Notes under the pieces: model-generated
Told to the model about the DNA's origin: nothing
What the model saw: only the letters and a program-made list of their open reading frames with translations
Database searches by the model: none
Translations under genes and position numbers: made by a program
Shown: piece by piece, positions 21,308 through 28,507 of the stretch
Layout: every line of letters starts with the position of its first letter
Numbering within the stretch: position 1 is the first letter of the stretch
From: Acidobacterium capsulatum ATCC 51196
Lineage (GTDB): Bacteria; Acidobacteriota; Terriglobia; Terriglobales; Acidobacteriaceae
Length of the DNA stretch: 64,000 nt
NCBI RefSeq assembly: GCF_000022565.1
Contig: NC_012483.1
Location: 1,426,001-1,490,000 of the forward strand
Direction of reading: 5' to 3'

Positions 21308-23070
<1,763 letters not shown>

Positions 23071-24814: not shown

Positions 24815-25141
24815 ATGAGGAAGCTCGAAAGCCGGGAGAAGGAAAACGGAAACAAGTCGCTTCGGCTGATTCCATTTGAAGGTCGCAGCCGCCCAACGGC
24901 GCGGATAAACTTAGGGGATGACGCCGATGCGTCTCACTCTGTCGCGCTGGAGCGGCATTTCACCGTGCCGGAAGTTGCCCGGCAATGGGGGATGAGCGAA
25001 AAGTCCGTCCGGCAGTTTTTCGTTAATGAACCCGGCGTGCTTAAATGGGGATCACCGGAAACCAGGAAGAAGCGCGGCTACTGCAACCTACGCATTCCGG
25101 AGAGTGTCTTGATTCGAGTACACCAGCGCCGGGCCGGATGA
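24815..25141 (+). CDS. Small HTH protein next to the integrase (excisionase candidate)
   Basis: This 108-aa basic protein has a helix-turn-helix in its second half (FTVPEVARQWGMSEKSVRQFF, about 50-70) of the type found in AlpA/excisionase-like and MerR-like HTH_17 proteins. It overlaps the integrase gene tail-to-tail by 54 bp. Small HTH genes adjacent to tyrosine integrases often encode the directionality factor, so an excisionase role is inferred from position. A GAGG box lies 7 nt before the ATG. Confidence 0.6.
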   Translation: MRKLESREKENGNKSLRLIPFEGRSRPTARINLGDDADASHSVALERHFTVPEVARQWGMSEKSVRQFFVNEPGVLKWGSPETRKKRGYCNLRIPESVLIRVHQRRAG

Positions 25142-26332
25142 ACTTGCCGCACGAGCTTTCTTCGGGGATTTCGGCGGTTTTGGTTCCATTTCCTGCCACG
25201 CCTGCCGGACACTCGCCGCAAGTTGTTCCTGTCGCGCCTTCACGAAGGGCGCGTAGTGCTTCTCGGTAATCTTTACGCTCTTGTGTCCCAGCAGAATCGA
25301 GACCTGATCAATCGGTACTCCAGCCAACAGCATTTCGACAGCGAAGGTGTCGCGAAACATATGGGGAAAGCAGCGCTTTCGCCCTCCGTCCGGCTTCTCC
25401 AACCCTGCGACCTCAAACAACCTGCGAAAGGCGCGCTGCCAATCTGCCACCGCCGACTTTGGGTCGCCATTCCCACTCCAGAAGAAGTAGCGCGGGTTCG
25501 GCTTAGGGCCGGGAGGAACATTGCGAAGATCCTCGGCAACTTTATGCGGAAGCGGAACGTAGACGGGCACGCCAGTCTTTGCCTGATAGAGTAAGAGGTC
25601 GTCATTCGACTGCAAGCGTTCCCTTTCGAGCGTCACGGCATCGCGAATGCGCAGACCGCTCCAACGCAACAACTGCACCAATGCACGGATGCGCTGTCCG
25701 CGCTTTTCCACGTCATAGCCGCGCTCCAGCCCGTCATCGAGCCGGTAGGTGCCATCAATGATCTCGTTGTATTCCTCGCGTGGAAAATAGTCGGTTGGCA
25801 TCTGCTGTACAGTAATGCGCTTGAGATTAAGCGTCGGACTCTGTGTGATCCAGCCGGCGCGGATGCAGAACCAGAAGAACCCCGTAAGACGTTCCTGCTT
25901 TTTCTTCTTGGCCAGTCCACCATCTCTCCATGTCGCCCGAAACGATTGAACGGCACGCAAATCCAGTTCGCGCAGCAGGGTGTAGCCCTCTGACTTTGTC
26001 CAGGCAAGAAACTGCTTTCGGAAGATCGTCTCCAGTTTGCTGAGTGTGGACTCTGCCAAATTGCGCGCCCGTGCGTCAGCCAGGTATTCATCAACCGCCT
26101 GCTTAATAGTGACGGGCTCTTCTTTCTTTGCAGGCGCGGCCTTTGGGTCGTCGGCGCTCTCAATCTCGTGGGCAAGATTCTGAGCGCGTTCCCAGCTGGC
26201 GGTCTGGAGGCTGCGACGGATGTAGGTTCCATTGACCGTTCCTTCGACCCACATGGGGCAGGAACAGCGCTTCCAGTAGCGGTCATCGGTCTTGGAGCAG
26301 CGCTTCAAATGGCGACGATAGAGCGTAAGCAT
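25088..26332 (-). CDS. Tyrosine recombinase / island integrase
   Basis: This 414-aa site-specific recombinase has a Cys-containing N-terminal segment (RCSCPMW, about 22-28), a SAM-like core-binding domain (about 74-165), and the catalytic domain with R228 (SGLRIRD), K252, H324-x2-R327 (HMFRD), H350 (LLGHKS) and nucleophile Y360 (KHYAPF). The complete active site suggests it is functional. Its start lies 76 bp from the 3' end of ssrA, a frequent target of such integrases, and it points away from ssrA. This marks the right boundary of the metal-resistance island. Confidence 0.92.
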   Translation of the reverse strand: MLTLYRRHLKRCSKTDDRYWKRCSCPMWVEGTVNGTYIRRSLQTASWERAQNLAHEIESADDPKAAPAKKEEPVTIKQAVDEYLADARARNLAESTLSKLETIFRKQFLAWTKSEGYTLLRELDLRAVQSFRATWRDGGLAKKKKQERLTGFFWFCIRAGWITQSPTLNLKRITVQQMPTDYFPREEYNEIIDGTYRLDDGLERGYDVEKRGQRIRALVQLLRWSGLRIRDAVTLERERLQSNDDLLLYQAKTGVPVYVPLPHKVAEDLRNVPPGPKPNPRYFFWSGNGDPKSAVADWQRAFRRLFEVAGLEKPDGGRKRCFPHMFRDTFAVEMLLAGVPIDQVSILLGHKSVKITEKHYAPFVKARQEQLAASVRQAWQEMEPKPPKSPKKARAASSSGPALVYSNQDTLRNA

Positions 26333-26408: not shown

Positions 26409-26440
26409 TGGTGGAGGCGGCGGGAGTCGAACCCGCGTCC
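26409..26440. other. Probable island attachment site at the ssrA 3' end
   Basis: The T-arm and acceptor part of the tmRNA (complement of TGGTGGAGGCGG...) lies directly beside the integrase gene. Integrases of this class recombine at the 3' end of tRNA-like genes and leave the gene intact. I found no second copy of this sequence in the window, so the partner repeat probably lies left of position 1. Exact limits are not visible. Confidence 0.5.
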
Positions 26441-26760
26441 GAAATTGGTGTCAGAAAAGAGACTCCATGCTCAGTCGCATTCCTTTAGGTTTCGCACTCT
26501 GCGCTTAGAAGCGACAAGATACGCAGAATGCTAGTCCGTGGATCTCATCCCCGCGGCCCAGACCCAGCCGAAGGAACCAGCCTGCTGTATGACGTCCTGC
26601 CTCGGCCCACAGGCGAAGCCTCAGAGGACGGCAACTTATTTAATTAAGCTGCGAGTGCCAGATTGTTGTTGGCAAGTATTGTTTTGCGAGCGATTACGGG
26701 TGCCCACCCCCCGGCATGCCTCTTTGCCGCAGTCAATCCCGTCGAAACCGTGACGCCCCC
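26409..26760 (-). ncRNA. ssrA: tmRNA (ssrA)
   Basis: The RNA starts GGGGGCGUCACGGUUUCGAC and ends with UUCGACUCCCGCCGCCUCCACCA in two parts: the 7-bp acceptor stem (GGGGGCG with CGCCUCC, one G-U pair) and the T-arm are those of the tRNA-Ala-like domain. The 3' CCA is encoded. The tag reading frame at 26644-26673 reads ANNNLALAA followed by UAA, with resume codon GCC. Several pseudoknot-like GC-rich stems follow. Length is about 352 nt. tmRNA with SmpB rescues stalled ribosomes and tags products for proteolysis. Confidence 0.96.
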
Positions 26761-27488: not shown

Positions 27489-27580
27489 CCGGACGCGATC
27501 CAGTTCGATAGACGGCCCCGAGATGAGGAAGTGCTCCAGGGATCAGGCTCTTCGGGAAGGGATGGCCTTCGGAAGGAAAA

Positions 27581-28052
27581 AGTGAATGCTAATTCGCATT
27601 CGTAAATATTCTTTATTCGCGTCTGCCTCAAATCCGCAAATGATTGATTTTATTGGGAGTAAATGTGATTCCGAATTCACATTTCTCGCGCAGGCTTCCT
27701 ATGCGGTGGGAATCCCGTGCGCATCTTATTGATAATTAATACATTTATCCCATGGATTTCCCTTCCCTGAACGCTTCGCGGATCGGATTTTAGCGGCTAC
27801 CGAGACTCGTAAGTGATTGATTTCAATAGACCGCAGAAAATGTGAATATGAATTCACATTTTTCGCGATTTTCCCTGATTCTGAATGCGCGATGGAGTCT
27901 GGAGCAGTCAGGACGCGCATTTGCGCGATTGTGAATCCTGAATCACATTTTCAAATGGCTCTCGCCGGCCCGGCGAGGACAGACCGCTTGCGCCTCTATA
28001 TTGCTGATATCAAATTGCTTATTCGCACGCACAATGTGATTTGCAATTCACA
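27581..28052. repeat. Array of five 18-bp dyads, TGTGA-N8-TCACA
   Basis: Cores lie at 27581-27598 (two mismatches), 27664-27681, 27841-27858, 27930-27947 and 28035-28052, all with exactly eight bases between the half-sites. Two cores extend to 24-bp palindromes flanked by AAA and TTT (27661-27684 and 27838-27861). Several are followed by TCGCG or GCGCGCAGG, and copies 2 and 3 share an upstream TGATTGATTT. They could be binding sites of a dimeric regulator of the CRP/FNR kind (which normally uses N6) or REP-like hairpins. Confidence 0.8.
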
Positions 28053-28130
28053 TTGCGCGCAGGATGTGTCCGGCCGATCCGGCGGCGGGGGCGGACCGGG
28101 AGAATGCAGGTCCCTCAGCCCGGTTCGTTT

Positions 28131-28232
28131 GGCCGGGACGACAAGAGGGCGGGGATTGTGGGAGAAACTCCGGGCGGCGTTTGTGGACGAGACATCGCCG
28201 GAATTCTTCGGCCGTTGGCCTCAGAATGACGC
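28131..28232. repeat. 100-bp dispersed repeat, copy 1
   Basis: This stretch (GGCCGGGACGACAAGAGGGC ... ATCGCCGG(A/G)ATTCTTCG ... TCAGAATGACGC) recurs at 37723-37823 with only scattered differences. Neither copy encodes a plausible protein. Confidence 0.75.
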
Positions 28233-28330
28233 ATCCGTGGGTGGGGCGGGGTCCGGGATGGGAATGCGGGGCTCTCCGCTACGCGCCTGTGGCGCTTCGC
28301 TCAGGATGAATGGCCCTTCTTGATCGCGGG

Positions 28331-28427
28331 TTTTCCCTCAGGGGCTAAAGCCCTGGATCTTTGGCGAGTTGGGATGTACGGGCCAAAGCCCGTACCCTTC
28401 AACAAGGCTGAAGCCATGCCCTGATCC
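28331..28427. repeat. Palindromic repeat family, copy A
   Basis: Three modules in order: CCCTCAGGGGCTAAAGCCC, GGGATGTACGGGC...GCCCGTACCC (hairpin with CAAAG loop) and a GGCTGAAGCC-ATGCCCTGAT end. It is the fullest copy beside that at 37509. It lies about 80 bp upstream of the DUF885 gene. Confidence 0.75.
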
Positions 28428-28507
28428 ATGCACGCAGTGCAGGGACCTATATCTATGGTACTGGGGATAGGCGGAATTTCCGGCGTTATACACTGTTCGC
28501 ATTCCGT

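Follow-up and report, generated by a model that had tools for sequence, protein, structure and literature searches.

What is a cluster of TGTGA-N8-TCACA dyads doing in one intergenic gap of the Acidobacterium capsulatum chromosome? In the window, by which we mean the whole 64,000-nucleotide stretch analysed here, a scan found four exact copies of this dyad, at 27664, 27841, 27930 and 28035 (Table 1). The earlier note on this DNA had described five evenly built dyads; the fifth, at 27581, is a degenerate copy with two mismatches (AGTGA...TCGCA), and the start-to-start distances of 83, 177, 89 and 105 bp are uneven. No further exact copy was found in the 64-kb window, where the other matches carry one or two mismatches and occur at chance frequency. 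As to the two 24-bp palindromes previously claimed, AAA...TTT frames are present at both 27661-27684 and 27838-27861, with perfect 10-bp arms in the second only. The flank said to precede the dyads, TGATTGATTT, is indeed there, at 27641 and 27814. It is the reverse complement of an IHF consensus site, which lies on the minus strand at 27637-27649 and 27810-27822 and recurs in every array of this kind, and the proposed duplicated unit was thus right in spirit.

Three perfect matches to the IHF consensus occur in the whole window (27249, 27637 and 27810), all at the array locus, and the intervals of 105, 89 and 177 bp agree less well than most with the geometry of IHF sites described below. A 44-bp leader on the minus strand (28444-28487), which the earlier note had missed, was recovered by the genome search with the R1 model at E = 1.7e-6. 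A dispersed repeat of the GGGCTGAAGCCCGTACATCCC type, with GTGGGAGAAACT and CAGAATGACGCATCC pieces, is present at 28060-28443 and also beside two other arrays (L041 and L045). An ORF related to the small one at the distal end was seen at the same locus of the congener G002.

Table 1. Features of the array locus (window coordinates).
Feature	Position	Strand	Remarks
Dyad 5 (distal, degenerate), AAAAGTGAATGCTAATTCGCATTC	27578-27601		17/20 consensus positions; 83 bp from dyad 4
Dyad 4, AAATGTGATTCCGAATTCACATTT	27661-27684		Exact TGTGA-N8-TCACA
Dyad 3, AAATGTGAATATGAATTCACATTT, full consensus	27838-27861		20/20 consensus positions
Dyad 2, GATTGTGAATCCTGAATCACATTT	27927-27950		Exact TGTGA-N8-TCACA
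Dyad 1 (leader-proximal), CAATGTGATTTGCAATTCACATTG	28032-28055		Exact TGTGA-N8-TCACA
IHF consensus site, AATCAATCATTTG, between dyads 5 and 4	27637-27649	-	Perfect WATCAANNNNTTR match
IHF consensus site, AATCAATCACTTA, between dyads 4 and 3	27810-27822	-	Perfect WATCAANNNNTTR match
Weaker IHF-like site, TATCAATAAGATG, between dyads 4 and 3	27722-27734	-	8/9 consensus positions
44-bp leader, AACGCCGGAAATTCCGCCTATCCCCAGTACCATAGATATAGGTC, pointing into the array	28444-28487	-	Position-weight score 40 bits; next best in window 9.6
Stretch separating leader and dyad 1	28060-28443		Other dispersed repeats; 80% identity over 55-90 bp with stretches beside L041 and L045
Small conserved membrane-protein-like ORF, 84 aa	27234-27488	+	3' end towards the array's distal end
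tmRNA gene (ssrA), locus landmark	26409-26760	-	ARAGORN and Rfam RF00023

The dyad belongs to a genome-wide family. The window covers positions 1426001-1490000 of the genome's single 4,127,356-bp contig, which holds 59 exact copies, as against none for the reversed-pattern control, and about 107 near-consensus dyads (consensus AAATGYGAAT-N4-ATTCACATTT). The dyads form approximately 34 intergenic arrays of two to five dyads each, in a catalogue built from stretches around arrays, where degenerate arrays may be under-listed. Distances between dyads fall into classes of 73, 80-85, 99-108, 113-123, 127-132 and 140-151 bp, the favoured values being 73 and about 82, 104, 120, 128 and 142 bp, and motif geometry is kept to 1-2 bp among arrays that are nearly all unalignable outside the motifs. 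Two arrays (L016 and L044) share 75% identity over 425 bp that start in the leader region and run through the last dyad, and their common descent implies that part of the regularity of the arrays is due to copying. Phasing of the inter-dyad spacers at 10.5 bp was not significant; the best period, 11.7 bp, reached only P = 0.03 after the search over periods, and we make no claim of helical phasing. Exact matches in other genomes number zero to four, which is the control level, with one in each of two congeners. The extended palindrome was found in 22 stretches among one-per-species GTDB genomes, mostly as single copies and none with a neighbouring leader, and had zero matches in viral contigs. 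We found no paper on these Acidobacterium repeats.

Variation among the 107 dyads bears on what kind of site they are. Variants common to both arms include TGCGAA for TGTGAA, AAAGTG for AAATGTG and TGTGATT for TGTGAAT. At pair 5/18 the combinations are T/T (75 dyads), C/T (25), T/C (5) and C/C (1), so that changes are one-sided and uncompensated. Because half-site changes are non-compensatory, the dyad reads as a dimer-bound duplex site and not as a conserved hairpin stem; it looks like the site of a protein dimer that tolerates half-site variants.

The TGTGA and TCACA half-sites resemble those of CRP and Rex, and the half-sites of CRP and Rex sites are separated by 6 bp. In contrast, the separation is 8 bp in all 59 exact dyads, none having the TGTGA-N6-TCACA form of CRP/FNR-type sites, and the dyads stand in IHF-linked arrays and not at promoters. 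A CRP reading is not supported by this comparison, and CRP and Rex operators were rejected on spacing and context; despite the resemblance of the half-sites, the duplication of ordinary operators of either type in one intergenic gap is a most improbable explanation.

REP families with RAYT genes, and TIR families with TIRYT genes, are lineage-specific dispersed palindromes, and A. capsulatum has the TIRYT acp 645 (PMC3733652). The palindromes of the arrays are likewise lineage-specific and dispersed, and the earlier note had raised a REP-like family, which hundreds of copies beside a RAYT-type gene would mark as an ordinary one. The genome-wide scan that it proposed did uncover a family, and one array overlaps the 3' end of a REP-type transposase gene; the copies are not in the hundreds, and the family is not ordinary REP. 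The genome has three Y1-type transposase genes, one of which adjoins an array and is flanked by a different palindrome, while the other two have no array nearby. Hairpin-preserving, compensatory changes were not seen among the 107 dyads. We discarded a REP family for lack of RAYT linkage and of hairpin covariation, and because of the copy number, with 59 exact dyads and about 107 near the consensus spread over about 34 arrays.

The array-associated gene (L023:3288-4100; genome 729287-730099) encodes a REP-associated tyrosine transposase (NCBIfam NF047646) and has its stop codon inside a leader. Its own inverted repeats upstream, CCCCACATCTCGCAGAGATGTGGGG, are a separate dispersed repeat family of the genome. 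Judging from the number only, it is perhaps the TIRYT acp 645 of PMC3733652.

A broader alternative is that the arrays are non-autonomous mobile repeats (MITE- or REP-like) multiplied by a transposase, with the IHF sites and dyads serving as transposase and host-factor sites and the leader as one end. The similarity of L016 and L044 is what two copies of one element would show, one of the three Y1-type genes overlaps a leader, and IHF sites are common in mobile repeats. However, the neighbouring transposase has a palindrome of its own, none of the RAYT genes of the congeners G001 and G002 adjoins a leader, and nearly all arrays keep their geometry while being unalignable outside the motifs. 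Loci are also conserved between species, and one class of arrays is evenly spaced, as described below. We consider a mobile repeat unlikely, although it deserves serious weight.

An oriented comparison of the arrays revealed the leader as a gapless 44-bp element, YGCCGGAAATTCCCCC-N6-CGCTACCATGGAAATAGGG, in 24 of the 26 first arrays. It always points inwards and usually lies 18-146 bp before the first dyad, compared with 388 bp in the window; at least one array (L041) has no detectable leader. A sequence model of the leader gave 52 matches in the genome at E<0.01, of which thirty-odd head dyad arrays (type I) and most of the others head a type II unit. The leader contains an invariant TA...T, as in a -10 hexamer, from which we infer that it may be a promoter. 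The type II unit (about 17 copies; L077-L094, for example L080, and L016:1200-1560) comprises a leader, a terminator-like hairpin, GTTGATTCTAAAGGACTTGCCAGCCTAATGTCC..AATCAANNACTTNCAGGACGTTAATG and a T tract, and its motif can also be given as GTTGATTCTAAAGGACTTGCCAGCCTAATG..AATCAANNACTTCCAGGACGTTAATG plus the T tract. This unit is kept at the sucA locus in G002.

An unsupervised motif search of 71 inter-dyad spacers returned TTTATTWTCAATGRCTTR, which corresponds to the IHF consensus WATCAANNNNTTR together with an upstream AT-rich tract. The perfect consensus occurs nine times in 5.5 kb of spacers (1.63 per kb) and three times in 135 kb of flanks (0.02 per kb). Putative IHF sites, enriched about 80-fold inside the arrays, thus lie between palindromic units, as is the case for RIB (BIME-1) elements. 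These sites are found in either orientation, yet both ways round they put the predicted bend centre equally far from the dyad. We set this centre immediately 5' of the W, following the lambda H' complex, and used the external Escherichia coli IHF consensus alone for scoring; the distance from bend centre to dyad centre was approximately 39 bp in the 104-bp class, 45.5 bp in the 128-bp class and 23.5 bp in the 73-bp class. In 46 of the 68 intervals the predicted bend centre lay no more than 2 bp from the median of its class, whereas 200 shuffles gave a mean of 9.4 such intervals and a maximum of 18. That the geometry is conserved while the orientation is free points to selection for a bent complex more than to mere descent of the sequence. 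Three HU/IHF-family genes are present in the genome, one of them an IHF-beta equivalog that scores above the NCBIfam cut-off.

Type I arrays are spread over-evenly along the chromosome (gap CV of 0.545 versus 0.961 for random placement, P = 5e-5), with a smallest gap of 24 kb (P = 0.0008), and the evenness survives the addition of six random sites. They share this non-random distribution with chromosome-organising sites; no over-even spacing was detected for type II arrays (P = 0.22). Even spacing could also have arisen because deletions between close repeats are selected against, or through a dispersal process. The orientation of leaders correlates with local GC skew (r = -0.77), a correlation that probably arises via gene direction. 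The neighbours of the arrays are diverse, unrelated housekeeping genes, and the 3' end of the distal gene faces the array in about 36 of 49 cases by hand tally, which is a bias and not a rule. DNA repair genes account for five of 30 array-adjoining genes (two HhH-GPD glycosylases, recR, rmuC and ruvA; L017, L021, L024, L033 and L035), a post hoc observation that may be due to chance.

The gene contexts weigh on the possibility of a regulon, in which a homodimeric transcription factor, with IHF as its architectural partner, would control either the genes next to the array or a non-coding RNA transcribed from the leader. The resemblance of the leader's TA...T to a -10 box, the dimer-type duplex site and the terminator-like hairpin that follows the leader in congeners are all in keeping with such control. 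Nevertheless, distal neighbours mostly have their 3' ends towards the array, the neighbours are functionally unrelated, and Rfam covariance models detected only the tmRNA in the window, with no known RNA family match for the array. We find a regulon rather doubtful.

Among the functions proposed in the earlier note, that of a nucleoid site fits best, given the IHF geometry, the even chromosomal spacing, the housekeeping neighbours and the 3'-end bias. We see about an even chance that the window locus is one of some 34 polar, RIB/BIME-1-like extragenic nucleoprotein arrays that organise the chromosome together with a second, lineage-specific protein. The anatomy of the arrays, in terms of motif content, geometry, polarity, distribution and locus conservation, is strongly supported, and it is from this sequence anatomy that we infer protein binding, folding and function. 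IHF would bend the DNA sharply between dyads, and bending could unite dimers of a sequence-specific protein bound to the dyads, so that each 300-500-bp array would fold into a compact complex. Such complexes may help to fold the chromosome or may form topological or transcriptional boundaries, roles also ascribed to RIB/BIME-1 elements, and the leader may fix polarity or yield a short RNA.

The closest known kind is the RIB/RIP (BIME-1) element of E. coli, characterised, in the account cited in PMC2817692, as extragenic, located at the 3' ends of transcription units, containing an IHF site between palindromes and present in tens of copies (Boccard and Prentki, 1993). The arrays are similarly extragenic, number in the tens and have putative IHF sites between palindromes; for location at 3' ends they show the bias noted above. 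Membership nonetheless fails on the REP units, since RIB elements have flanking REPs in opposite orientation, whereas the array dyads are not REP sequences: they are AT-rich, near-symmetric, in the same orientation, non-hairpin and without a GTAG tag. The arrays further differ from RIB/RIP in having several IHF sites, a conserved polar leader, even spacing, a palindrome swapped between species and no RAYT linkage. With matS, SlmA sites and parS they share short palindromes distributed over the chromosome as putative protein docking sites; unlike these, the array dyads are clustered, IHF-spaced and leader-headed, with about one array per 120 kb. As IHF-containing extragenic repeats, the arrays offer an abundant, evenly spaced set.

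We detected the leader in 10 of 200 family genomes, with at least 20 copies (strict setting) in each of three Acidobacterium species; outside Acidobacterium there are nine copies in G113 and one or two in other genomes. Downstream of the leaders in the congeners G001 and G002, the IHF consensus occurs at 1.45 per kb, compared with 0 in flanks. Partner motifs after the leaders of relatives are GTTAACC...CCCATAG and ATACGATT..AATCGTAT, and GCGGGGGATGATCCCCCGC in G113. The leader-headed arrays of G113, which represents a third genus (L125-L133), have this last palindrome between TAAGTNATTGAAAATA repeats, and most of the nine fetched copies are near-identical.

Five of 20 G002 leaders share their gene border and orientation with A. 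capsulatum leaders: those at tmRNA (the window locus), amidase, ribBA, Metal_resist and sucA. The chance expectation is below one, by a rough estimate that takes about 52 leaders and some 3,000 intergenic regions. At four of these five loci the A. capsulatum array is type I with TGTGA dyads, whereas G002, with one TGTGA-N8-TCACA in its entire genome, lacks dyads there, which indicates that the loci are old and that the palindrome has changed. The best reading of these comparisons is that the leader and IHF sites form a conserved core, while the palindrome appears lineage-specific and exchanged between Acidobacterium species at loci that keep the leader. More tentatively, the Acidobacteriaceae may have a chromosome-organising system whose leader-headed IHF arrays keep to orthologous loci but whose partner palindrome, presumably together with the protein that binds it, is exchanged across the whole genome from one species to another; a rapidly evolving docking site would then sit on a bending scaffold that is conserved. 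The same loci with another palindrome in congeners are natural controls, and if the dyad protein does coevolve with its sites, this would be an unusual bacterial example of binding sites turning over across a whole genome.

The tmRNA-linked integrase was considered as the owner of the array and rejected, because the same integrase is found at the G002 locus without TGTGA dyads, and arrays elsewhere lack an integrase. The tyrosine recombinase gene that adjoins tmRNA (window 25088-26332) is approximately 98% identical in G002, far above the other genes compared. Farther away, window 21598-23070 encodes a pyridine nucleotide-disulphide oxidoreductase that begins with CCQT, ends with LSCCAG and by eye resembles a mercuric reductase; a LysR-type gene comes after it.
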